Program-made: the position numbers and the translations under genes | Notes under the pieces: generated by a model | The model's database searches: none | Told to the model about the DNA's origin: nothing | What the model saw: the letters and a program-made list of their open reading frames with translations, nothing else | Shown: one piece after another, positions 19,831 through 62,366 of the stretch | Layout: every line of letters starts with the position of its first letter | Position numbering within the stretch: position 1 is the stretch's first letter | Virus record (IMG/VR): IMGVR_UViG_3300046516_001816 | Coordinates: 124,001-188,000 of that record | Direction: 5' to 3' (one strand) | Source: a virus | Length of the DNA: 64,000 nt

Positions 19831-20322
19831 ATGCAGCAGCACGGTAACGTTTTAGCGTACTATCGCGAAACCGATTTCATGAGCCACATGTATCGGTGCG
19901 AGTTTTACTATCGTGACATTCTGTTTAACCATGTCGAAAAATTTATCATGTACGGCAAAGCCATGGCCTTTCATGATTCCGACACGGCGCAGAAGATCAT
20001 TGACAACGACAGCCCCTACGAGTGTAAGACGCTCGGCAAGGCAGTCAAAGGTTTTGATCAAGGCATTTGGCAGTCGCAGTGGGCACCGCGGGTCGCCTAC
20101 GTGGGCAACCGCGAGAAGTATCGGCAGAACCCGAACCTCGCGGACTTGCTCAAGCAAACCGAGGCGCTGATTCTGGCCGAAGGCAGTTGGAACAAAGTGT
20201 GGGGCGCAGGCTTTGCGAAAGATGATCCCCGCATCGGTGAAGTCCATTTATGGCCAGGTGCAAACTTGGCCGGTAACACCTTGATGCGAGTCCGTAAAGA
20301 ACTCTTGACGGGTCTCTACTAA
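19831..20322 (+). CDS. NADAR-family ADP-ribosylglycohydrolase (YbiA-like)
   Basis: 163 residues, the usual NADAR length. Family features in order: FMSHMY (degenerate FLSNFY), HVEKFIMYGKAMAFHD, AQKIIDNDSPYECKTLGKAVKGFD, WAPRVAYVGNREKY, then ALILAEGSWNKVWGAGF, LWPGANLAGNTLMRVRKEL. NADAR enzymes cleave N-glycosidic bonds, and some remove ADP-ribose from guanine in DNA. In a phage the likely task is to undo DarT-type DNA ADP-ribosylation by host defence, or to detoxify nucleotide damage. The Glu in HVEKF and the WGxG loop are kept. The Asn of the first motif is His. A terminator follows. Confidence 0.85.
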   Translation: MQQHGNVLAYYRETDFMSHMYRCEFYYRDILFNHVEKFIMYGKAMAFHDSDTAQKIIDNDSPYECKTLGKAVKGFDQGIWQSQWAPRVAYVGNREKYRQNPNLADLLKQTEALILAEGSWNKVWGAGFAKDDPRIGEVHLWPGANLAGNTLMRVRKELLTGLY

Positions 20323-20331
20323 ACCCCGAAA

Positions 20332-20361
20332 GGGGACGCCTAGGAAGCGTCCTCTTTTTTT
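20332..20361 (+). terminator. Intrinsic terminator
   Basis: Stem GGGGACGC / GCGTCCTC with a seven-base loop and seven T. There is no ATGCCG continuation. Confidence 0.85.
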
Positions 20362-20382: not shown

Positions 20383-21384
20383 ATGACAACTGATAACAAA
20401 AGCGCACTGGACATCGTTCACGGCCTGAGCGATGCTCACGAGGGTTCGATCATGCAGAACCGCCGGGCAGCTGAAAAGCGCATTCATGCGCACTACTACA
20501 CGGTCCACGATCGCTTCCATACGCTGCATGCGGAGAAGGCTAAGCGCGAACAAGAACAGACGAACGCCGCGAACGCCGGTTTCGTGCAACAAGTGGCCGT
20601 GTGGAAGGGTACGCTTGTCACGCCGTTCCAGCAGCCGGTTGCGAAGGTCGAGATGGGGTTCACCGCCCAGCGAATCGAGGAGGTCCTTCCGTGCCAGATC
20701 CAGGAAGAGACGGCGCCCCTCACGGGCTTCAAGAAGCGTTGGGCTGTGCTCATGCAGCTCGCGGGTCTGTTGAACGAATACACGGACCTGCTCAATGAAG
20801 AAGACGCCGAAGATCCGTCGGACCATGTGCAGGAAGGTCGCCGCGTCGCTCAGATGTTCGCCATCGCTGCGCTGGAAACCGCGCATGCCGCCGGCCTGGA
20901 TCTCGACATCGAACGTCGTCCGGTTGGTCACGCAATGGGGAGCTTCGTCTCAGCGATCATCATCGGTGAAACCAACAAGGTCTACCGCGCGCGGTTTGCC
21001 GCAGAAGCCGAAGCGAAGCACGCGCAGGCTGAACAAGAAGATCGAACGGCCATGGGTGAGCCGGACTGCACGTGTGCGAGCAATCCGCACGCCGAGAATT
21101 GCCCGGTGACTTACTTTGTGCGTGAACTCTTCGCGAACTCGGGCGAGTGTGCGCAAGCGCTCGTCGAGGAAGGCTCCAGCATTCCGTTCGGTGTGCTCGA
21201 TGAACTGCCGGCGGCGATCAACCCGTGTACGGAAACGCCGGCGATGTTGGCCAAGCGGATCGTGCTGGGCAAAGACGCTGAGCAGATCATCGTGCCGCAG
21301 GAGCCGTTTACGGAACCGGTGGCCATGGGTCATCCGTACCTGCCGTATCCGAGCAAAGAAGAAACGATGTACATCCCGGTGTAA
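20383..21384 (+). CDS. Hypothetical acidic protein with a Cys cluster
   Basis: 333 residues, ATG 20383 shortly after a terminator. The N-terminal 65 residues are charged helix (RAAEKRIHAHYYTVHDRFHT). The middle is helical and acidic (LLNEEDAEDPSDHVQEG). Residues about 225-245 contain EPDCTCASNPHAENCP, a C-x-C...C cluster that could hold a metal, and another Cys follows in NPCTETP. The Pro-rich C-terminus ends MYIPV. No known family or enzyme motif recognised. Confidence 0.7.
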   Translation: MTTDNKSALDIVHGLSDAHEGSIMQNRRAAEKRIHAHYYTVHDRFHTLHAEKAKREQEQTNAANAGFVQQVAVWKGTLVTPFQQPVAKVEMGFTAQRIEEVLPCQIQEETAPLTGFKKRWAVLMQLAGLLNEYTDLLNEEDAEDPSDHVQEGRRVAQMFAIAALETAHAAGLDLDIERRPVGHAMGSFVSAIIIGETNKVYRARFAAEAEAKHAQAEQEDRTAMGEPDCTCASNPHAENCPVTYFVRELFANSGECAQALVEEGSSIPFGVLDELPAAINPCTETPAMLAKRIVLGKDAEQIIVPQEPFTEPVAMGHPYLPYPSKEETMYIPV

Positions 21385-21418
21385 GTGACCGGATCATACA
21401 GACCAAAAGGAAAGTAAA

Positions 21419-22540
21419 GTGAAGCGTCTTATTGCAGTGCTGGCTGTGCTGACCAGCTTCTCGGCCCACGCGAATCTCGTGGTGAAGATCGGGCACTCGG
21501 TGCCGCTGACTGGGGAGTCGGCGAATATGGGTAAGGACGACCAGAACGGGGGCGTGCTGGCCATCGAGGAGTTGAACAAGCAGGGCATTACCGTCAAGGG
21601 GCAAGCCGTGACGTTCGTGCTCGACTCGGAAGACAACGCCGCGGATCCGCGTACCGGCACGATGGTCGCACAAAAGCTCGTGGACTCCGGTGTGGTGGCG
21701 GTGATCGACGGTCAGCTCTCGTCGGTGGCGATTCCGGCCGCGTCGATTTACAAAGCCGCTGGCATTCCGCAGATTGCCAATGCTGCGTCCAACCCCGAGC
21801 TTACCAAGCTGGGGATTCAGTCGGTGTTCCGCATTGTGGGGACCGACGATCAGCAAGGACCCGCGTTGGCGCAGTACGCGATCAAGACGCTTCACTACAA
21901 GACCTTCGCCGTGCAGGACGATCAGACGGCGTATGGTCACGGACTAGCGGAGGCATTTGCCAGTGAGGTTACGAAACAAGGTGGCCGGGTGGTGTATCGC
22001 GGGGGCAATAGCAACAAGCAAGTCGACTTCAAGGCTATGCTTACCACGATCAAAGGCAAGAACCCCGACGCAATTTTCTACGCCGGGGAAGAAGCCACCA
22101 CGGCCCCCCTCTTTAAGCAAGCGATCGCGCTTGGACTCCAGTCCCAGTTTCTTACCGGTGACTCGGGTTGTGTGGACGAACTTGCCAAGCTCACAGGCAC
22201 TGCGGCTACGGATCGCCTTACCTGCGCAGAACCTGACACTGCTTTTTCTCTCATACCCCGGGGCACGGAGTTTGAGAAAGCGTACCGTACCCGTTTCCGT
22301 CAGTCCATTGTGGACTATGCGCCCTACACGTACGACGCGATCATGCTGATTGCGGATGCCATCAAGCGCGCGGACTCGACGACGCCCAGCGATATCACGC
22401 AGGCCTTGAAAGCGGCGAACTACGAAGGCATCACCGCCACAATGCAGTTCGATCCGTTCGGGGATCTGAAGCATCCGGTCGTCAGTATTTCGAAGTTTGT
22501 GAACGGGGTGAAGACACCGTTTCAGATTGTGAAGCCGTAA
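21419..22540 (+). CDS. Secreted LivJ/LivK-type amino-acid-binding protein
   Basis: 373 residues, GTG start with AAAAGGAAAG upstream. A cleavable signal peptide is evident: basic MKR, hydrophobic LIAVLAVLTSF, and AHA before Asn19. The mature part has the full type-I periplasmic binding fold of Leu/Ile/Val receptors: VKIGHSVPLTGESANMGKD, VIDGQLSSVAIPAA, IANAASNPELT, DDQTAYGHGLAEAF, DAIFYAGEEATTAPLF and APYTYDAIMLIADAI. Length equals the bacterial family (about 370) and no truncation is seen. The ligand-contact Ser in QLSS and Ala/Ser in AASNPELT are kept, while the LivJ Glu in the GPEG loop is replaced (TGDSG). No transporter genes are nearby. The host periplasm is its expected site. Confidence 0.9.
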   Translation: MKRLIAVLAVLTSFSAHANLVVKIGHSVPLTGESANMGKDDQNGGVLAIEELNKQGITVKGQAVTFVLDSEDNAADPRTGTMVAQKLVDSGVVAVIDGQLSSVAIPAASIYKAAGIPQIANAASNPELTKLGIQSVFRIVGTDDQQGPALAQYAIKTLHYKTFAVQDDQTAYGHGLAEAFASEVTKQGGRVVYRGGNSNKQVDFKAMLTTIKGKNPDAIFYAGEEATTAPLFKQAIALGLQSQFLTGDSGCVDELAKLTGTAATDRLTCAEPDTAFSLIPRGTEFEKAYRTRFRQSIVDYAPYTYDAIMLIADAIKRADSTTPSDITQALKAANYEGITATMQFDPFGDLKHPVVSISKFVNGVKTPFQIVKP

Positions 22541-22547
22541 AGGAATC

Positions 22548-23129
22548 ATGAACAAGAAAAAGACTATCCTGTTTTTCACGGGGATCGGTCTCATGACCTG
22601 TGTCGGGCTGACGCTGATCATCAGCTCGTGCAGTCACGACGAGGCCGATATTCAACCGGTGCAGCAACAACCGGTGCAAGCGCAGTCAGCCTCGCAGACA
22701 CCAGCGCCTCAGATCATCGAGCGTGAGCGGATCGTGGAGCGCCACCACAGCGGGATCAATAGTTTCTTGCTGTGGCACTATCTATTTAGTCAGTCGAGCC
22801 CGACCCACACGGTGGAGTATCGTCCTGCGCCGCTGTATCATCCGCAGGCTCCGTCGACGGTCGTGCAGCAGAACGTCACTAACGTGACGGTGAACAAAAC
22901 GGTGAATGTCAATGCCAATGCTCCCTCTGCTTCTGCTGATTCTTCTAGTGGCAGTCCTGCGCGCCCGGTGGTATCGGCCCCGGCAAAGTCGTGGTGGGCC
23001 ACCCCCACGCAAGTCATGAAGGCGTCGACGGCTTACCCGAAGGCGCAAAATACCAATACGGGGAGCTACGCGGCGAAAACCGCCAGCTACTCCGGCTATA
23101 AACAAACTGTGAAGATAGGGAGAAGGTAA
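22548..23129 (+). CDS. Putative outer-membrane lipoprotein
   Basis: 193 residues, ATG seven bases after the binding-protein gene with AAAGGA upstream. A basic start (MNKKK), hydrophobic core and the lipobox ISSC (Cys28) predict lipidation. Ser follows the Cys, so outer-membrane sorting is expected. The mature protein is low complexity: Gln/Pro/Ala-rich, then IIERERIVERHH, a Val/Asn/Thr-rich block (NVTNVTVNKTVNVNANA) and a basic C-terminus (KQTVKIGRR). Adjacent export of two proteins suggests they act together in the envelope. A spanin is an alternative, but no partner with the usual architecture was found. Confidence 0.65.
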   Translation: MNKKKTILFFTGIGLMTCVGLTLIISSCSHDEADIQPVQQQPVQAQSASQTPAPQIIERERIVERHHSGINSFLLWHYLFSQSSPTHTVEYRPAPLYHPQAPSTVVQQNVTNVTVNKTVNVNANAPSASADSSSGSPARPVVSAPAKSWWATPTQVMKASTAYPKAQNTNTGSYAAKTASYSGYKQTVKIGRR

Positions 23130-24061
23130 TGGACAAGGTCCTGTGTGTCTATCACAAAGACTGCATTGACGGTTACGCGGCGGCCTGGGTGGTCGGGCAC
23201 GCGTGTGGCTTTGAGAACGTGGAGTTCGTCGCGGCGAACTACGGCGATGCGCTGCCAGTGTTGGAAGGCCGGGAAGTCTATATCGTCGATTTCAGCTACG
23301 ATCCGGCTGAGCTCTCCACCGATGACTTGAAGCAGATGGCGAAAGCCAAGCGCCTGGTCATGCTCGATCACCACGAGACGGCCTACGCGAACTGGAAAGA
23401 TGTCCCGTTGCTGGATCACTGGACTTTCCGTTACGAACCTGCGATGTCTGGGGTTGGGGTGGCATGGCGCTGGTTCTTTGGCGGCAACAAAGCGATGCCC
23501 ATGCCCTTGCAGTTGATTCAGGATCGCGACCTGTGGCAGTTCCAGCTGGAAGGCAGTCGCGAGTTTCATGCGGTGGCAGTGTCCTATGGACTCCTGCGAG
23601 AAGCGCCGACCGAGCACGGCTGGCTGGGTCAGCTGATCGAGGACACACCGTTCTGGTTGAATGGGCCGCCTTCGGATATTATCATGATCCAGGGCAAGGC
23701 GATCATTCGGGATCAGAAGAATCTGATTCAGACACTCTTGCAGCGCGCGCATCTGGTGAGCTGCCGGGGCTATGAAGTGCCGCTGTGTCAGGTGCCTTAC
23801 GACATGCGCTCGGACGCGGGCTTCTGGTTAAGCCTCAAGTATCCGTTCTCGATTACCTACGACGATGTCTGGTCCGATGGCGTGCGCAAGTATTCGTTTC
23901 GCTCGAACAAGAAGACCGGTATCGACGTGATGAAAGTCACGCAACCCTGGGGCGGCGGTGGTCACAAGCACGCCTCGGGCTTTACGGTACCGATTGATCT
24001 GCCGTTCCCTTTTCTTGCAGTGCAGGGACGTCAGTTGAAGCTGGATTTTGAAGACAAGTAA
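23129..24061 (+). CDS. DHH/DHHA1-family phosphoesterase
   Basis: 310 residues, ATG overlapping the previous stop (TAATG). Motif I is YHKDCIDGYAAAW (His9, Asp11, Asp14). Motif II is VDFSYDP. Motif III is the hallmark DHHETA (Asp80-His81-His82). The C-terminal DHHA1 domain has WGGGGHKHASGF. These are the metal-binding residues of DHH phosphodiesterases, which degrade nanoRNA, pAp or cyclic-nucleotide products. Length matches the two-domain form. The substrate is unknown. Degradation of short oligonucleotides for recycling, or of a cyclic-nucleotide defence signal, would fit a phage. It overlaps the DUF1289 gene. Confidence 0.88.
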   Translation: MDKVLCVYHKDCIDGYAAAWVVGHACGFENVEFVAANYGDALPVLEGREVYIVDFSYDPAELSTDDLKQMAKAKRLVMLDHHETAYANWKDVPLLDHWTFRYEPAMSGVGVAWRWFFGGNKAMPMPLQLIQDRDLWQFQLEGSREFHAVAVSYGLLREAPTEHGWLGQLIEDTPFWLNGPPSDIIMIQGKAIIRDQKNLIQTLLQRAHLVSCRGYEVPLCQVPYDMRSDAGFWLSLKYPFSITYDDVWSDGVRKYSFRSNKKTGIDVMKVTQPWGGGGHKHASGFTVPIDLPFPFLAVQGRQLKLDFEDK

Positions 24062-24626: not shown

Positions 24627-25886
24627 ATGTCGGACGGACTCGCCGCCCTCACCCAGAACTTACAAGCCGACATGCTGTCGGTGGCCGACTCAGCCTCTAA
24701 AGCGGAGACGAGTGCCAAGGACGCTGTGGCCAGCCAGGAGGCCGCGTACGCCGCTGCGCAAAGCGCCAGTACCAGTGCCGCCGGTGTCACCCAAGCGGCT
24801 GCTAGCAGCCTTACCAACGCGAACCAGGCCCAGTATTGGGCGGGCGTCGCTCAAGCCGTCAATGCGATCAAGGCCAGCTTCGATCCGGTGAGCCGCAGTG
24901 TGCTGATTGCCCTCTCTAATGCGAATCTCACAGCCCGATTTCCAGTGGGGCAAGCTGGCATTCTGGGCAATGTCGGACACGGTGCGGGACAGCATTATTT
25001 CGAAGTCACCTTTGTGTCGGGCAGCGCGAGCAGTAACTGTTCGATTGGGGTGGCGCCGAAAAAGCAAGACCTCAACAGTCAGATTGGCTACAACGACAAT
25101 AGCTCGGGCTCGATTGCAGCCTTCCAGAATTCCGGCAACATTTATAGCAGCGCCTCTAAGCTAGCGACCACGGATAGTTTCGGCACGGCCGGTGCGGTGG
25201 TGGGTGTCGCGGTGGATTCGGATAAGAACCTGGTCTGGATTCGCGTGAATAACGGACACTGGAATGGCAATCCGAGTGCGGATCCGGTCGAAGGGGTGGT
25301 GGGTTTGCCGATTCGCTTTACGGGCGCTGTGTACCCGGCGATGGCCACCGACGTGGTCTCGACGTATACCGCGAACTTCAACGGTCCGTTTGCCAACACC
25401 ATTCCTACGGGCTACAACGCCTGGGGGGCGGACGCGTTTCAGTATGTCGTACCGCTCGCGACCAAAGACACGCCGGGGGTGGCGTCCTTTGGTGAAGGCC
25501 TGGCGGTCGATGCGCAAGGTAATGTGACGGCCAGTGTCTATTACGATCTGGCCACCACGCAAGGCTGGGACACGATGACACTCGATCTCAGCACCCCGCA
25601 GCCGCTCTATCACCTGGTGCTGAATGCGACACAAGCGTCGTTGGCCTTTGCGAATCTGAATCTGCCCGCGGGTAAGGCGCTGCGCTTTACGCTCTACGTC
25701 GAACAGGGCACGGGGGCGAATACGATCACCCAGTGGGACAGCCGGATTCAGTGGTGCACGGGCTCGGGTCAGGCTCCGGTGCTGGCGTTTGCCAAGGGCG
25801 CACGCAATGTGTTTGAATTTGAAACCATCGACGGCGTAAGCTTCGCGGGCTACTACGTCGGTCAACTGAACGCGAGCGGTGCGTAA
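24627..25886 (+). CDS. Tail fibre with SPRY-like receptor domain
   Basis: 419 residues, ATG with AAGG upstream. Residues 1-85 form an Ala/Ser-rich coiled shaft (SASKAETSAKDAVASQ). Residues about 95-250 match the SPRY/B30.2 pattern: QHYFEVTFVSG, SIGVAPKK, GYNDNSSGSIAAF, GAVVGVAVDSDKNLVWIRVN, NNGHWNGNP and AVYPAMA. The C-terminal 150 residues are another beta-rich domain (VASFGEGLAVDAQGNV, LRFTLYVEQGTGANTI, FEFETIDGVSFAGYYV), a familiar fibre-tip element. It is probably a receptor-binding fibre at the tail. A short gap separates it from the glycosidase-like gene, so they share a transcript. Confidence 0.75.
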   Translation: MSDGLAALTQNLQADMLSVADSASKAETSAKDAVASQEAAYAAAQSASTSAAGVTQAAASSLTNANQAQYWAGVAQAVNAIKASFDPVSRSVLIALSNANLTARFPVGQAGILGNVGHGAGQHYFEVTFVSGSASSNCSIGVAPKKQDLNSQIGYNDNSSGSIAAFQNSGNIYSSASKLATTDSFGTAGAVVGVAVDSDKNLVWIRVNNGHWNGNPSADPVEGVVGLPIRFTGAVYPAMATDVVSTYTANFNGPFANTIPTGYNAWGADAFQYVVPLATKDTPGVASFGEGLAVDAQGNVTASVYYDLATTQGWDTMTLDLSTPQPLYHLVLNATQASLAFANLNLPAGKALRFTLYVEQGTGANTITQWDSRIQWCTGSGQAPVLAFAKGARNVFEFETIDGVSFAGYYVGQLNASGA

Positions 25887-55509: not shown

Positions 55510-57795
55510 ATGACCGCTTTATTGATGGAAGGGTTTGAGAGCGTCATTGACACGCCGGACCTGACGAACCGCGGATGGAAGATGTCCAGCATGGCGTCGT
55601 CGAATGGCGCCAATACCATGACCTTGCCTTCGCGCACGGGCATGCCGGGTAGAGGATTGTTTTTGCGGGGCCCGTACAACTCTAATACGACCAACCTGCC
55701 GTTTGCCAATGCGGTGGATTTCGGGATGCTCGATACCGGTGCGTCCATTTATAGTCTCTGGCAGTCAGGCGGATTTTGTTTGGGCGTGAATGCCGTGTTT
55801 AACAAGGCGAACATGGTCCAGATCGCGAACTACATGACGCGTCAGATCGTGTACGATGGAGCGCAGTACTACTGGGCCCTGGGTCAGGACAATAGCAATG
55901 TGTGGCGGGTGTACTACTCCACGGACTTGCAGAACTGGACACAGACAACCATCACGCCCGGCAGCGCTGCCTTGGGTTCATCGATTACGGTGATCGGCAG
56001 CGGACCGAGCGCCACCGTGATTGTCGGAGGGTTTCTCATCAGCACCACGGCTGCGTTTTACTACTCGACCAATATGGGACTGGCCTGGACGGCGAGTAAC
56101 GCCACCGGGATCTCGGGCTCCAAGACAGTGATCGCCACGGGCAACGTCAACACTCCCATTATGTTCGGGGCCCAGCCCAGTAGTGGCGCGAACGGCGTTT
56201 TCTATCTGAGCAGTGTGTCAGGCGCGCCGGTGCAGGTGGCAGGCTTGGCGCTCACGGCCTCGAGCACGTATAACTCGGGTAACTCCAAGTTGGTGAATGG
56301 GATAGCGTGCTTTATCGCCTCCTCGGGTACAACGTCCCCGGCCGCCTTGACGACTAATGCGTCTATCGTGGCATGCTGTCCGGTGTCCAAAGACATGACG
56401 ATAGCGGCCAACTATACGTTGACGCCTTCGCTGGCGCATCAGTTGGCCGATATCACGTTCCTCAATAACACGTGGATCGCTGTAGGGCATGGCGGGATTT
56501 ATACGTCCCCCAATAGTGGTACGGTGGGTGCGCCGGCGGGCCCGACTGCTGCGTGGTCGACGGCACTGGCGGTGACACAAAACGGCGGCGTGTATTCGAT
56601 CGATACGAACGGTACGGTGGCCGTGGCCGTGGGTAATGATAACGTGAGCTCGGTAATTCCGGCCATCTATACGTCGACCGATGGCGTGAGTTGGGCGAAA
56701 CAGAATCGTCTTACCTTCACCACCGCCAACAACGTCGCGAACACGCAGCCGTTTACCAACGTCTTCTGGGACGGTCATCAGTTTGTGCTGACGGGTGGTG
56801 TGAGTAATAGCGTGGTGGCGACTTCACCGGATGGTTTTCAGTGGACGCCGCAGTACGTGCCCGACTACACGGAGTCGTCGGGGGGGTCCGTGGCCTCGAT
56901 GCTGGGTGTGTATTCCGGTGTGATGAACGCCGGCGCGTGGGTCGGTGCAAGTCAGGCCGCGGGCGGTTTTGCTCCGTGGACGACGGGGGCGGCCGCCCAA
57001 TGTGGGGTGGGACTGTTAGCCGGTCCAGTCAGTAATGGCGCCCGCAACGTGAGTGCCTGGTTGGTACCTGGCGGGACGACGACGAGCGCGATCGTAGCCA
57101 TTTCCTCGATGAGTGCCGCGGTACCGACCAACCCGTTGTCGCACTACTACGAGCTGATTGCCACGGCCACCGCGAGTGTGAACACCTTTACGTTCCAGCT
57201 CGCCATTGATGGCGTCGTGCAACCGGCACTCAGTCCGCCCGTTCAGTTTGCGGCCACGGGCGACACCACCGGTGCGTCGCATCTGATTTTCAACCTTCCG
57301 CGCTCAGGCAACTGGGTGATGGTGGATGACCTTTATTTGACGAACTTCTCAGGCTCAAATAACGTGGGTCAACTGGGTGTCACCAGTGTGTTGCCGTGGG
57401 TGCCCTCCAGTGATGTACAGGCGCAGTATAACCGAACGGCGGGATCGTCTAACGCCTCGCAAGTCGTGGGTCCGCTCTCCAATGCTCAGACGAGCGTTAA
57501 TGCTCAAGCGGTGGGGGCGAAGGATATCTACGGCATGACCACTAGCGTGCCAGTCGGCTATCGCGTGCGCGCCATGCAGGCAGAAGCCTACTTTTCGAAG
57601 TTTGGTGCCACGGGGGCAGCCGCAACGGTCGGCATTGTCAGTAACGGCGCGGAAAGCGATTCGGCGCAAGCGAACGCGGCGACTAGCACGCCCGTGTATG
57701 CCTCGGTCCTGTGCGACACCGATCCGAAGACGGGTGCTGCCTGGACGGTAGCGGCTGCACAGGCGGCGGAGATTGCGATCGTCAAAGCAACTTAA
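55510..57795 (+). CDS. Asp-box beta-propeller tail protein, copy 1
   Basis: 761 residues. The N-terminal 100 residues (ALLMEGFESVIDTPDLTNRG, GRGLFLRGPYNS, IYSLWQSGGFCLG) form a jelly-roll-like domain. Residues about 115-450 hold sialidase-type Asp-box blades: YYSTDLQNWTQ (about 136), YYSTNMGLAWT (185), YTSTDGVSWA (387), TSPDGFQWT (438). The C-terminal 220 residues are beta-rich (HYYELIATATASVNTFTFQL, NWVMVDDLYLTNF). The catalytic Arg/Tyr/Glu set of true sialidases is not evident, so binding rather than cleavage is likely. Paralogues follow at 57810 and 60081. Confidence 0.7.
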   Translation: MTALLMEGFESVIDTPDLTNRGWKMSSMASSNGANTMTLPSRTGMPGRGLFLRGPYNSNTTNLPFANAVDFGMLDTGASIYSLWQSGGFCLGVNAVFNKANMVQIANYMTRQIVYDGAQYYWALGQDNSNVWRVYYSTDLQNWTQTTITPGSAALGSSITVIGSGPSATVIVGGFLISTTAAFYYSTNMGLAWTASNATGISGSKTVIATGNVNTPIMFGAQPSSGANGVFYLSSVSGAPVQVAGLALTASSTYNSGNSKLVNGIACFIASSGTTSPAALTTNASIVACCPVSKDMTIAANYTLTPSLAHQLADITFLNNTWIAVGHGGIYTSPNSGTVGAPAGPTAAWSTALAVTQNGGVYSIDTNGTVAVAVGNDNVSSVIPAIYTSTDGVSWAKQNRLTFTTANNVANTQPFTNVFWDGHQFVLTGGVSNSVVATSPDGFQWTPQYVPDYTESSGGSVASMLGVYSGVMNAGAWVGASQAAGGFAPWTTGAAAQCGVGLLAGPVSNGARNVSAWLVPGGTTTSAIVAISSMSAAVPTNPLSHYYELIATATASVNTFTFQLAIDGVVQPALSPPVQFAATGDTTGASHLIFNLPRSGNWVMVDDLYLTNFSGSNNVGQLGVTSVLPWVPSSDVQAQYNRTAGSSNASQVVGPLSNAQTSVNAQAVGAKDIYGMTTSVPVGYRVRAMQAEAYFSKFGATGAAATVGIVSNGAESDSAQANAATSTPVYASVLCDTDPKTGAAWTVAAAQAAEIAIVKAT

Positions 57796-57809
57796 GTGAG
57801 TAAAAGATC

Positions 57810-60071
57810 ATGACCTGTGTGTTAACAGAAGGATTTGAGTCCGTCCTCGATGATACGGATGTGGTGCGTCGCGGCTGGGTGCGCCCGAGCGCTGTCACCT
57901 TGAGTGGAGCTGGGACACTGGGGATGCCTGCACGGACGGGACAACCAGGTCGTGGTCTACTCTTGCGCGGACCGTATTATAGTGCCGGTGGCTTACCTAA
58001 TGCCACTAGCGCGATAGCGGACTTCGGGATGCTCAATACGGGCAAGAGTATCTACAGCCTCTGGCAGGCCGGTGGGTTTGTAGCGGGTTTTAGTGCAGCA
58101 TTCAATAGCTATCCGCACACGACTCAGCTGCAAGTAGCCGCACCCGATACCCAGCAGATCGTCTATGACGGCGCCCAGTATTACTGGGCCATTGGGCAGA
58201 TCTATTCGAGTTCGACCAACGTCGTGATGTATTCGACCGATCTGGTGAACTGGACCCCGTGTGGGGCCCAGCCGACCCTGCTTCAGAACGCAGTGATCCA
58301 AGTGATCGGTAGCGGACCCAACGCCACGATCATTCTCGGTAATAAGAGCGGCGTGTCGCCGATGGTGCCTTCCTACAGCACCAATATGGGATCGAGTTGG
58401 AGCACGATGGCTATCGGTGCCTCGGATAATATCAAGAAGATTCTGCCGGCTGCCGGCCCGTCTTCCGCGCCGTATATTGCCGTTGGCTACTATCCGGGTA
58501 ACGGATTTCGATTGTGGAGTTATGCGTCGCTTTCGGCTACCCCGACTTTGATCACAGGAGCGAACGTGACGGGGACCGTGACGTATGGTACCGCATGGGC
58601 ACGGGTGAGTAATGGCTTCTATGTGGTCTGCGGGATGTCGATGGCAGCGTCCGGCACTGCGCCAGCGGCGGGGTCCTCGTTCGTGTGGTATTGCCCGACC
58701 AGTGTGGACCCAACGGTCGGCAGTAACTGGGTAGCGCTGACAAGCGCCAGCACGAACTATTTCAATGACGGTATCTACTTCAACAATCGTTTTGTGATGG
58801 TGGGGTATAACGGCATCTATTGGAATGGGGCGGCGAGCAATAACACCTGGATCAATGCGCTCACAACAGGTACTGCTTCGGTGTACTCGATTGCCTCCAA
58901 TGGTTCCATGCTGGTCGCAGTCGGCCAGGATCCGGTGAACACCACGTTGCCGGCGATTTGGACCTCCCCAGACGGGATGACCTGGACCAAGCAGAACAAG
59001 CTGATTCTGTCCAACGCCGGAGGCAATGGCAACAATACGATGTTTTCGAATATCTATTGGGATGGGGCGCGCTGGGTGTTGACCGGCGGCGTGAATTGCA
59101 ATGTGATCGCCACCTCGACGGACGCCGTTACCTGGACGCCGCTCTATTACCCGGATTATCCGGAAACGGGCGTTACGGCGGGCTCCATGCTGGGTGTGTT
59201 TTCAGGAACCCTCAACGCCGCTAACAATATATTTACGCCGTGGTCAGCGACCACAGGAGTGGTGGGGCTCGGGGTAAACGCGACCCCGGTCTCCAGTCTG
59301 AATCGGGCGCTCAATGGTGCGACCGTGACCGGGGCAAACACGATTAGCAATATTGCGCCGGCGACGACGGTCTTTACGACCAATGTGGTCGGCCCGCAAC
59401 CCGTGGGTCAGCTCACGCACTACTACGAGCTCATTGCGACGGCGACGGCTTCTCAGAATACTTTCACCGTTCAGTGGGCGCTTGATGGGGTGATCCAACC
59501 GGGCGTGATTGGGACGATTCTCTTTGCCGGCGCAGCCGACACCGGCTCAGCGCAGCTCTGTCTGAATCTGCCGCGCAGCGGGGCGTTTGTCATGATTGAT
59601 GACATTTATGTCAACACCATGAATGGCTCGAGCAATGTCGGGCAGCTCGGACCGGTCAGTGTGTTCCCTTGGACGCCAACGTCGGACACGCAGGCGCAGA
59701 TGACCGCGTCGCTTGCGGGCTCCCACGCTGCACAAATTGCAGGTCCGCTGTCCACCAACACGGGTTCGCTCTCGACGTATGTGCAAGGCACGAAAGACAT
59801 CTATGCCACGAGAGAGTCCATCCCAGCGGGCTTTACGATTAAGGCTGTTTCAGCAGAGGCGATCTTCACCAAGAACGGCACGATTGGGGGCGCGGGTAAC
59901 GTCGGGATCACCAGCAACGGGCACGAAGTCGATTCGACCGCGGTGTCCGCGCCGGTGGCCAATACGTATTACTTCGCCTCGGTGCTCTTGGAGACGGATC
60001 CCAACACGGGCCTGGCGTGGACCAAGACAGCGCTGGATCTCGCGGGTATTACCGTGAGCAAAACGAATTAA
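57810..60071 (+). CDS. Asp-box beta-propeller tail protein, copy 2
   Basis: 753 residues. Same architecture as 55510: EGFESVLDDTDVVRRGW start, GRGLLLRGPYYS, SIYSLWQAGGFVAGF, then YDGAQYYWAIGQ. Blade motifs are YSTDLVNWTP, STNMGSSWST, TSPDGMTWTK and TSTDAVTWTP. The end is HYYELIATATASQNTFTV and FVMIDDIYVNTMNG. It is close to copy 1 along the whole length but differs most in the blades, which are probably the contact surface. The GSDxxAxSxA linker segments are also conserved. Virion tail location is inferred. Confidence 0.7.
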   Translation: MTCVLTEGFESVLDDTDVVRRGWVRPSAVTLSGAGTLGMPARTGQPGRGLLLRGPYYSAGGLPNATSAIADFGMLNTGKSIYSLWQAGGFVAGFSAAFNSYPHTTQLQVAAPDTQQIVYDGAQYYWAIGQIYSSSTNVVMYSTDLVNWTPCGAQPTLLQNAVIQVIGSGPNATIILGNKSGVSPMVPSYSTNMGSSWSTMAIGASDNIKKILPAAGPSSAPYIAVGYYPGNGFRLWSYASLSATPTLITGANVTGTVTYGTAWARVSNGFYVVCGMSMAASGTAPAAGSSFVWYCPTSVDPTVGSNWVALTSASTNYFNDGIYFNNRFVMVGYNGIYWNGAASNNTWINALTTGTASVYSIASNGSMLVAVGQDPVNTTLPAIWTSPDGMTWTKQNKLILSNAGGNGNNTMFSNIYWDGARWVLTGGVNCNVIATSTDAVTWTPLYYPDYPETGVTAGSMLGVFSGTLNAANNIFTPWSATTGVVGLGVNATPVSSLNRALNGATVTGANTISNIAPATTVFTTNVVGPQPVGQLTHYYELIATATASQNTFTVQWALDGVIQPGVIGTILFAGAADTGSAQLCLNLPRSGAFVMIDDIYVNTMNGSSNVGQLGPVSVFPWTPTSDTQAQMTASLAGSHAAQIAGPLSTNTGSLSTYVQGTKDIYATRESIPAGFTIKAVSAEAIFTKNGTIGGAGNVGITSNGHEVDSTAVSAPVANTYYFASVLLETDPNTGLAWTKTALDLAGITVSKTN

Positions 60072-60080
60072 GGAAGCGTC

Positions 60081-62366
60081 ATGACTTTACAGTACATGGA
60101 AGGGTTTGAGACGGTCGTCGATTATTCCGACTGGACCAAGCGAGGCTGGTTCAATAGTGTTAACCCCAGCATTGCGGGTAACTCCGTGGCGGGGCTGCCT
60201 TCGCGTACCGGCACCGTAGGGCGGGGTCTGATGCTCAAGGGTCCGTATGCGGGCAACGCCAGCTTGCCGCTCGCGGTGGCGAGTACGTCTGACTTTGGCA
60301 TGTATCCGCTGGGTAAGAGTATCAATAGCCTCTGGCAAGCCGGGGGTTTTGTGCTCGGGGTCAATGCGACCTTTAACAAAGTCAACAAACAGGAAATCGC
60401 GGCGTGGTGTCCGAATCAGATCTGTTACGACGGCGCCCAGTATTATTGGGCGGTTTGTGTCAATAACGCGGGCGCGGTTCAGGTCTGTTACTCGACGGAC
60501 CTGATGACCTGGACGCCTACCGTTACACAGCCAGCGGGACTGGGGCTCCTTTCGACGATTGCCGTCTCGGGCAGCGGCGCCACCGCCACCGTGGTGGTGG
60601 GTCACTACCAGTCGCAGCAGAATTCTTTTCCGGTCTTTACCACCAATATGGGATTGAACTGGAGCAACGGTACCACGCTGGCCGGCGCCACGATTCTGCG
60701 CATTTTCCCGTCAGGCAATCCGACCACTCCGTGGGCTTACGTCGCTCAGGTTGGCACCGCGGTAGAATGCGGGGTGTTCTCGGGCGGGTTAACAGGTACC
60801 GCTAACACGTTGTCGACGACAACCTTTAGCAATTACGGCCAGGCAGGCTATCCGTATGCGATTGGTAACGGTAAGCTCGTCAATGGCGTGGTGTGTATGC
60901 TGGGGACCCTGACGGGCAATGCCGTGCCTAGCACGCTGGGTTCAACGGGTCAATATTTCTGGACGTGTAACAACACGCTCGATATGACCGTGGCGGCTAA
61001 CTGGAAACAGAGCGCCAATACGATATTAGGATACTTTCAGGACATTACGTTCTTTAACAACAGGTGGTATGCCGTGGCCGGCGGGGGTATTCTGAGCGCG
61101 CCTCAAACTGGCACGGCGCAAGTACCTCAAGGGCCGACGGCTGCCTGGGCGGCGGTTGTCAACTTTGGCAATAACGGGTATTGGCTTAACTCCATCGACA
61201 CGAACGGTTCGATCATGGTGGCGGTGGGGTCCGATAACGTTAATGTCAACTACGGCGCGATCTGGACTTCCACAGACGGCGTGAGCTGGACCAAGGCAAA
61301 TCGTTTCCCGGGTGGGGTGGGCGGTATTCAGGCTGGCGGCGTGGGCGGGTTCACGAATGTTTTCTGGGATGGTCGACAGTTTGTATTAACCGGGGGTCCG
61401 AATCAGAATCTGATCGCCGTGTCGCCGGACGGTCTGAACTGGAATCCGCTTTACTATCCGGATTACGCCGAAAGTGTCGTCCCTACTTGTGCGTCCATCT
61501 TTGGACTGTATTCCGGTACGGTCAATGGTTCGGGCTTGTATGTACCCTGGTCCGTCGCCAGTGGTACGTTTTGCGCCGTCGGCATAAACGCATCGGCGCA
61601 ATCCAACGGCACGCGCACGGTCACCAACTACCTGGTGACGGCCTATAGTACACCAACTGCCACGGCGACAGCGTCGGCCGCGGTCTCTACAGCGCAGCTC
61701 TCGCACTACTACGAGCTGATTGCCACCGCAGGCGCCACGGCGAATTCGTTTACGTTCCAGCTGGCGATTGACGGCGTGATTGTCCCCAACACGAGTGCAG
61801 CGTGGTCATTCGCTCCGTCGGCCGACACCGGTACGCAGATGGCGTATTTGAACTTGCCACGCAATGGTAACTTCGTGATGCTGGACGACATTTACCTCAC
61901 GGACTTTGTGGCGGATCCGTTGGGTAACACTGGTCAACTGGGGATTGTCAATATCATCGGCGGGCAACCGAGCTCGGATGCAGCCGTGCAGTTCACTCAG
62001 CAGGGCACGGCGGCGTCTCATGCTGCCCAGCTGGCGGGGGCGTTGTCCAATTCGGAAGGCGGGGCGTACACCTACACGGTGGGCGCGAAAGATACCTACA
62101 ACGCCACGATACCGATCCCGGCGAACTACAAGATCCAAGCAGTCCAGGTCGAGGCGTATTTCACGCGCTACGGCAACTCGGGTGCCAATGCATCGGTGGG
62201 GATTCTGAGCGGTACGCACGAAGTGGATTCGCCGGCTGTATCGGCGATGAGTGCGACGGTCCCGTCGTATGCGAGCTTGATGCAAAACGTGGATCCGAAT
62301 ACCGGCGCCCAGTGGACGATTGCGGGCCTTCAGGCAGCGAAGCTGACGATCAATAAGCTGACCTAA
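60081..62366 (+). CDS. Asp-box beta-propeller tail protein, copy 3
   Basis: 761 residues, AAGGAAG upstream. Start EGFETVVDYSDWTKRGW, then GRGLMLKGPYAG and SINSLWQAGGFVLGV, as in copies 1 and 2. Blade motifs are YSTDLMTWTP, TTNMGLNWSN, TSTDGVSWTK and SPDGLNWNP. The end matches too: SHYYELIATAGATANSFTF and NFVMLDDIYLTDF. It differs in a Gly/Asn-rich loop near residues 405-425 (VGGIQAGGVGGFTN). It is the third of three tandem copies covering 6.9 kb. Confidence 0.7.
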   Translation: MTLQYMEGFETVVDYSDWTKRGWFNSVNPSIAGNSVAGLPSRTGTVGRGLMLKGPYAGNASLPLAVASTSDFGMYPLGKSINSLWQAGGFVLGVNATFNKVNKQEIAAWCPNQICYDGAQYYWAVCVNNAGAVQVCYSTDLMTWTPTVTQPAGLGLLSTIAVSGSGATATVVVGHYQSQQNSFPVFTTNMGLNWSNGTTLAGATILRIFPSGNPTTPWAYVAQVGTAVECGVFSGGLTGTANTLSTTTFSNYGQAGYPYAIGNGKLVNGVVCMLGTLTGNAVPSTLGSTGQYFWTCNNTLDMTVAANWKQSANTILGYFQDITFFNNRWYAVAGGGILSAPQTGTAQVPQGPTAAWAAVVNFGNNGYWLNSIDTNGSIMVAVGSDNVNVNYGAIWTSTDGVSWTKANRFPGGVGGIQAGGVGGFTNVFWDGRQFVLTGGPNQNLIAVSPDGLNWNPLYYPDYAESVVPTCASIFGLYSGTVNGSGLYVPWSVASGTFCAVGINASAQSNGTRTVTNYLVTAYSTPTATATASAAVSTAQLSHYYELIATAGATANSFTFQLAIDGVIVPNTSAAWSFAPSADTGTQMAYLNLPRNGNFVMLDDIYLTDFVADPLGNTGQLGIVNIIGGQPSSDAAVQFTQQGTAASHAAQLAGALSNSEGGAYTYTVGAKDTYNATIPIPANYKIQAVQVEAYFTRYGNSGANASVGILSGTHEVDSPAVSAMSATVPSYASLMQNVDPNTGAQWTIAGLQAAKLTINKLT

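Follow-up and report, generated by a model that had tools for sequence, protein, structure and literature searches.

Phage-borne nutrient receptors are known for phosphate from some marine cyanophages, whose PstS is not known to be accompanied by permease genes. Passages in two papers present cyanophage PstS as a protein thought to aid phosphate uptake via the host transporter (PMC10976474; PMC3429862). Viral contigs have also been linked to the branched-chain amino-acid system: for soil of the Aral Sea, livH, livK and livM are named among the AMGs that such contigs carry (PMC9948696). The presence of livK in viral contigs has thus been reported previously, and this was the one relevant passage found in excerpts of the literature on phage- or AMG-encoded branched-chain or substrate-binding receptors. 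In the part of PMC13103812 available to us, hydrogen bonds to the ligand of LivJ are attributed to Ser79, Thr102, Ala100, Tyr202 and Glu226, and the lining of the site to Tyr18, Leu77, Cys78, Tyr150 and Phe276. Position 78 is printed as Leu-78 in that paper and as Cys78 in PMC6983066.

Here, we analyzed a Leu/Ile/Val-type binding protein encoded in a 64,000-nucleotide stretch of DNA (the window), which spans positions 124001-188000 of a virus record of 284,983 bp. As with cyanophage PstS, the phage genome carries a lone host-derived receptor gene of the periplasmic ABC-importer kind and no permease gene. The two differ in binding-protein family, as the ligand of PstS is phosphate, and in host, which is presumably a proteobacterium here and a cyanobacterium for PstS phages. 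In addition, cyanophage PstS is known in several cultured phages, whereas the amino-acid receptor described here is a single case. The phage protein shares with LivJ and LivK of E. coli and Salmonella the fold family, as judged by sequence, the Ser79, Thr102-type and Tyr150 residues, and an acid at position 226. However, it is 26-27% identical to them and the Leu/Ile/Val pocket is absent. LivK sits with livHMGF, whereas the linkage to livHMGF that characterizes LivJ/LivK proper is missing from the phage record.

A complete receptor gene in a phiKZ-like jumbo phage

The record represents a phiKZ-like jumbo phage of lytic type, to which, among named phages, Burkholderia phage FLC9 is closest. 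This placement is based on conserved virion proteins. One of these, a 989-aa protein encoded left of the window, matched phrog_3248 at 1025 bits and was 46.2% identical to FLC9 and 33.6% identical to PhiPA3. The Terminase_6N profile had no match in the phage record, and no near DNA match to window positions 10000-34000 was found in the phage collection.

The receptor gene is a genuine and complete Leu/Ile/Val-type (Peripla_BP_6) binding protein gene. Its product matched Pfam Peripla_BP_6 (PF13458) at 168.4 bits (4.4e-49, cut-off 31.7), covering positions 2-325 of the 343 in the profile. With phmmer, it matched solved structures over almost its full length, led by 3ipc (1e-41) and the E. coli leucine-binding protein 1usg (9e-40). 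A Sec signal peptide ending in the cleavage motif A-H-A is predicted for the first 18 residues, a call based on reading the sequence and on a crude script. The full-length profile match, this predicted N-terminal export signal and the head-group residues described below are those of binding proteins of the hydrophobic amino-acid type (HAAT). The initial annotation had described a complete LivJ/LivK-like protein with an intact signal peptide among phage genes, and both parts of that description were borne out. The protein did not reach the cut-off of NCBIfam NF011933, which represents LivJ/LivK proper (192.8 bits vs 477), and the two bacterial pocket variants described below also fell under it (246.1 and 229.6 bits). 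No PHROG family was matched. Contamination by a bacterial contig was rejected because the gene sits within a 285-kb record with phage genes on both sides. The codon usage of the receptor gene was typical of the window (0.162 vs a mean of 0.140, sd 0.098, for 34 other genes).

The receptor gene belongs to a same-strand cluster of four genes at 20383-24061, which also contains a 333-aa ORF, a lipoprotein-like ORF and a DHH phosphoesterase gene (Table 1). The terminator-like hairpin at its upstream edge, with 12 pairs, is the longest of six such sites, where 5.2 were expected by chance. The 333-aa ORF was detected in none of 39 related phage records in a search run without a positive control. A repeat-flanked insertion was considered as the origin of the receptor gene and rejected, as the flanking repeats were only short and chance-like.

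Table 1 Positions of the receptor gene, its functional segments and other genes discussed in the text. Positions refer to the window unless a locus is named.
Feature	Position	Strand	Remarks
NADAR-domain gene	19831-20322		before the terminator-like hairpin
Intrinsic-terminator-like stem-loop and T run	20328..20358	+	upstream edge of the four-gene cluster
333-aa ORF, function unassigned	20383..21384	+	upstream of receptor, 34-nt gap
Probable ribosome-binding site AAGGA	21407..21411	+	7 nt upstream of receptor start; read from sequence
LivJ/LivK-type periplasmic binding protein (receptor)	21419..22540	+	373 aa, GTG start, no internal stops
Predicted Sec signal peptide MKRLIAVLAVLTSFSAHA	21419..21472	+	cleavage before Asn19; sequence and hydropathy script
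Pocket segment Gly98-Ser102 (GQLSS)	21710..21724	+	homologues mostly HLNSG or HHNSG
Glu224-Glu225	22088..22093	+	Glu224 at LivJ Tyr202 position
Asp248-Ser249	22160..22165	+	Asp248 at LivJ Glu226 position (ligand ammonium)
193-aa lipoprotein-like ORF	22548..23129	+	lipobox I-S-S-C; 7 nt after receptor
DHH-family phosphoesterase	23129..24061	+	one-base overlap with stop codon of the lipoprotein-like ORF
Tail-fibre-like protein with SPRY domain	24627-25886		
Three tandem related proteins	55510-62366		761, 753 and 761 aa; phrog_30887
989-aa virion protein	L055:5013-7979		left of the window
764-aa ORF with YadA_anchor	L056:352-2646		record bases 188352-190646, just right of the window; likely start residue 34
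Variant receptor gene and diaminopropionate ammonia-lyase	L132:6164-9176		bacterial genome G661

The receptor is solitary in the phage and often in bacteria

The receptor was the sole match to PF13458 in the entire record, and BPD_transp_2, the LivH/LivM permease family, had no match. For ABC_tran, no match exceeded the cut-off, and the single sub-threshold one (20.6 vs 25 bits) falls in a protein with a CPKC motif, which we read as an SbcC/gp46-like ATPase. On these grounds an importer encoded by the phage itself was rejected, in agreement with the earlier observation that neither a permease nor an importer ATPase accompanies the receptor.

This lone state is ordinary among the bacterial relatives of the receptor. 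At 18 of 58 homologous loci (57 distinct, as L054 repeats L039), the flanks, mostly 1.5 kb long, contained LivH, LivM or LivG, and the two nearest relatives were not among these 18. For a second set, the 30 best homologous loci, LivHMG was found within about 1.5 kb in none; both sets consist of best-scoring loci rather than a random sample. None of LivH, LivM and LivG was found in 17 kb around L121 or in 10 kb around L039, up to the contig end. Being solitary, these bacterial relatives must either depend on permease genes at other loci or have another function.

Receptors of this type are very rare in phages

In phages of lytic type, a Leu/Ile/Val-type binding protein on its own is very rare. 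Peripla_BP_6 was detected in 0 of 39 related phage records, namely 36 IMG/VR contigs obtained with a virion-protein alignment (A4) plus FLC9, LucasX and FLC8; many of these are fragments, including the closest pair (66%), which measure 70 kb and 49 kb. Scans of IMG/VR with single virion proteins found almost no related records. Scans of IMG/VR for the receptor retrieved 1 stretch with exact peptides, 56 with alignment A1 and 61 with alignment A3, with no relative among them, and these are weak negatives, each scan having used a few short patterns and no positive control, with the record of the window itself possibly masked.

A protein search of INPHARED with the receptor matched 14 of 50,697 records, all below 60% identity. 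Six of these were opened (H3, H4, H5, H9, H10 and H14) and the other eight were assessed by title and length. The four judged at the contig level were bacterial. H3 is a contig from Salmonella on which LivK and LivH are annotated. H9, H10 and H14 (MT835716.1, MT835649.1 and MT836242.1) are unverified 'Bacteriophage sp.' scaffolds that we consider bacterial because visual inspection showed permease and/or ATPase genes of the Liv type on them. H4 and H5, opened as short stretches, were left out of this verdict. By title and length, H2 is a Salmonella contig, H1, H7 and H12 are 1.5-2 kb pieces, and H6, H8, H11 and H13 are 'Bacteriophage sp.' fecal scaffolds. The initial annotation had called a lone copy in a lytic-type phage very unusual, and this is supported; the lack of a permease is shared with the nearest bacterial relatives.

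The binding pocket departs from that of LivJ

We aligned the receptor with LivJ to compare the ligand-contacting residues. The hydrogen-bonding residues Ser79, Thr102, Ala100, Tyr202 and Glu226 of LivJ correspond to Ser101, Ser124, Ala122, Glu224 and Asp248 of the phage protein, and the lining residues Tyr18, Leu77, Cys78, Tyr150 and Phe276 to Met37, Gln99, Leu100, Tyr172 and Tyr300. By this alignment, the residues for the alpha-amino and carboxylate groups are kept (Ser101, Ser124, Asp248 and Tyr172), two of the four through conservative substitution. The pocket for the Leu/Ile/Val side chain (Tyr or Trp at 18, Leu77 and Tyr202) is lost, with Met37, Gln99 and Glu224 in its place. The pocket geometry is drawn from the alignment, as an AlphaFold2 model built from a two-sequence alignment had a pLDDT of 45.8. 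A shift of ligand specificity away from Leu/Ile/Val, as suspected earlier, is probable on these changes. Given the retained head-group residues and the lost side-chain pocket, polar or cationic amino acids and compounds related to them are the most likely ligands.

The shift had been attributed to a TGDSG loop replacing the Glu-bearing loop of LivJ. The Glu is replaced, but the acid is kept as Asp248, and Asp is found at this position in every aligned homologue of the 58-locus set and in 30 of 30 of the second set. The loop is therefore not the seat of the change: the main differences are Glu224 and Gln99, and only Ser249, at a position with Gly in every listed homologue, is unique to the phage. 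PDB 3ipc, the best solved-structure match, likewise has a Gly-Asp-Gly loop in place of Glu. We take this structure to be Agrobacterium Atu2422 with GABA as its ligand. It differs from the phage receptor in being bacterial and about 30% identical, and the ligand need not be shared.

Most Burkholderiales homologues have Met at the LivJ Tyr202 position, and Glu was found there in L121, L039 and L122. L122 combines Glu224 with the canonical motif. In L121 and L039, the canonical motif (G-H-L-N-S-G; HLNSG or HHNSG in most homologues) is lost and replaced by S-D-[M/L]-S-S, whose Ser-Ser pair the phage receptor also has. Within the GQLSS segment, Leu100 and Ser102 are common to the phage receptor and L039, and Ser102 is common to the phage receptor and L121. 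As Glu224 and the loss of the motif are common to two bacterial genes, the pocket change was probably inherited and not born in the phage. The bacterial variants differ from the phage receptor in having Asp at the LivJ Leu77 position, where the phage has Gln, and Gly in place of Ser249.

The receptor derives from a rare bacterial variant lineage

Matches to the receptor at an E-value of 1e-60 or better were found in 220 of 300 genomes of the order searched, with a top identity of 48%. The genus of G286 was covered by 65 genomes, each with a match at 1e-95 or better and identity up to 49%. Across 398 Burkholderiaceae genomes, the best identity was 51%. This divergence excludes recent passive capture of a host gene, for which the initial annotation had expected near-identity.

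A tree of 31 sequences united the phage receptor in one clade (support 100/100) with L121 from genome G661 and L039 from genome G346, both 49-51% identical to it, and placed it as sister to L121 (97/76). The phage branch is long (1.49 changes per site vs 0.09 and 0.18 for the bacterial variants), which calls for caution about the placement even with the nearest homologue included; an earlier tree without L121 left the receptor unplaced. The placement agrees with the shared pocket residues. We conclude that the receptor stems from solitary binding proteins of Burkholderiaceae, from a rare lineage with a variant pocket, and that its acquisition was not recent. Among the 30 best homologues of L121 in the 398 genomes, to which the motif check was limited, only L121 itself and L039 were variants and 28 were canonical. 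It is this ancestry that is surprising, the lone state and the loop change being more ordinary than had been thought.

Both variant genes are chromosomal, solitary and compositionally foreign. Their GC3 values are 0.741 (L121) and 0.643 (L039), and the phage receptor has 0.727. Other genes measured around the two variants ranged from 0.82 to 0.88, except for an ammonia-lyase gene at 0.756, and the 28 canonical homologues had a median of 0.85 and a minimum of 0.725. The low GC3 of both variants suggests a horizontally moving gene.

On the chromosome of G661, a member of the Burkholderiaceae, the variant receptor gene L121 and a diaminopropionate ammonia-lyase gene are neighbours within a stretch of low GC3. 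The two genes are 640 bp apart, and the lyase scored 503.9 bits vs a cut-off of 276. Together with the acidic pocket residues, this neighbour, seen at one locus, is a hint of a cationic amino-acid ligand. The neighbours of L039 were read as genes for alpha-keto-acid dehydrogenase subunits.

Sequence constraint and possible roles

We compared the receptor with 50 bacterial homologues at the 83 alignment columns in which these show a conservation of at least 95%. The phage protein keeps 66 and changes 17, while the bacterial proteins change 1.76 on average and at most 17 (L026), with 9 in L039. The changed columns include pocket residues and five charged residues (E42Q, D73N, E179A, K182S and D199N, written from homologue to phage). 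Cys251 and Cys269, which are near-universal in the homologues, are both kept, as expected for an exported protein.

We tentatively favor, at a little under even chances, a role like that of PstS, in which an exported receptor would supply a Liv-type importer of the host with a ligand that is not Leu, Ile or Val. According to this proposal, the gene would have been acquired long ago from the solitary pocket-variant lineage of Burkholderiaceae. The host Sec system would export the soluble protein to the periplasm during infection, where it would bind its polar or cationic ligand, an amino acid or a compound related to one, and dock onto a Liv-type permease and ATPase encoded in the host chromosome. 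The import of the infected cell could thereby be widened by this ligand, as is thought for cyanophage PstS and phosphate. The intact frame and the conservation of most constrained columns despite about 1.5 changes per site argue for such a role, and the solitary state usual in the best homologues is consistent with shared permeases. Docking may fail if any of the lost charged residues touch the permease. As the receptor was found in none of the 39 related records searched, it is not a general need of such phages.

If the proposal is true, a diverged amino-acid receptor in a phiKZ-like phage would extend phage nutrient receptors to nitrogen or amino-acid supply and to the Burkholderiaceae, and a single soluble, purifiable protein would offer a handle on what a phage gains from altered host import. 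A more specific version holds that a horizontally moving receptor for a polar or cationic ligand, 2,3-diaminopropionate or similar, reprograms the range of host Liv import or strips the periplasm of its ligand. We regard this version as rather unlikely. Against a cationic ligand, the diaminopropionate link is found at one locus and L039 lies near keto-acid dehydrogenase-like genes. Should the novel-ligand reading be true, jumbo phages would share in moving a rare receptor lineage between Burkholderiaceae, and we know of no earlier amino-acid receptor with a specificity of its own that is encoded by a phage.

The altered pocket, the lack of a phage permease and the lost charges at columns with at least 95% conservation in the homologues, a loss which could uncouple the receptor from transport, would also fit a sponge or blocker. 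Such a protein would bind the ligand, or occupy the permease without delivery. The host would then be starved, silenced or desensitized, for instance through withdrawal of a signal or through competition with its own LivK-type proteins. We consider this unlikely, as no ligand or signal is known, most conserved columns are retained, and the bacterial variants, whose pockets are changed too, presumably still function in transport.

The receptor and the lipoprotein-like ORF were the clearest candidates in a crude export-signal scan of the window, five other ORFs being less convincing. With its lipobox and short distance to the receptor gene, this neighbor would fit a role in which the two proteins, perhaps together with the YadA-anchor protein encoded in the record just outside the window, alter the host envelope or block secondary infection. 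However, an envelope role would not require the conserved ligand head-group residues, which the receptor keeps, and no relative of the lipoprotein-like ORF was found in INPHARED. We judge this role unlikely as well.

The long branch, some ten times those of the bacterial variants, could also reflect relaxed selection on a neutral passenger under decay, and the 17 changed columns and the absence from all related records searched are in line with this. Such decay is improbable, as the 373-codon frame and the predicted signal peptide are intact, the two cysteines, most glycines and the head-group residues are kept, and the gene has a good ribosome-binding site and phage-like codon usage. Recruitment as a virion or tail-associated protein, to which the tail and fibre genes a few kb downstream might point, has very little probability given the intact predicted signal peptide, the separate cluster behind a terminator-like hairpin with a phosphoesterase gene, and the lack of any fusion to structural domains.

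Other genes in and beside the window

Several other genes were observed. The NADAR-domain gene scored 107 bits with Pfam and was assigned to PDC-M42C by PADLOC; some members of the NADAR family are named in anti-phage defence. For the first of the three tandem phrog_30887 proteins, a match to glycosyl hydrolase 43 was weak and below the cut-off, and a partial similarity to a BcepSauron/BcepSaruman protein was found. The 764-aa ORF has a predicted signal peptide at its likely start, a long repeat-rich stalk and a C-terminal YadA_anchor (45.6 bits vs 22.7), and was read as a phage-encoded autotransporter-like surface protein. The tail-fibre-like protein matched the SPRY domain, which is unusual in phages, at 34.6 bits vs a cut-off of 26.3.
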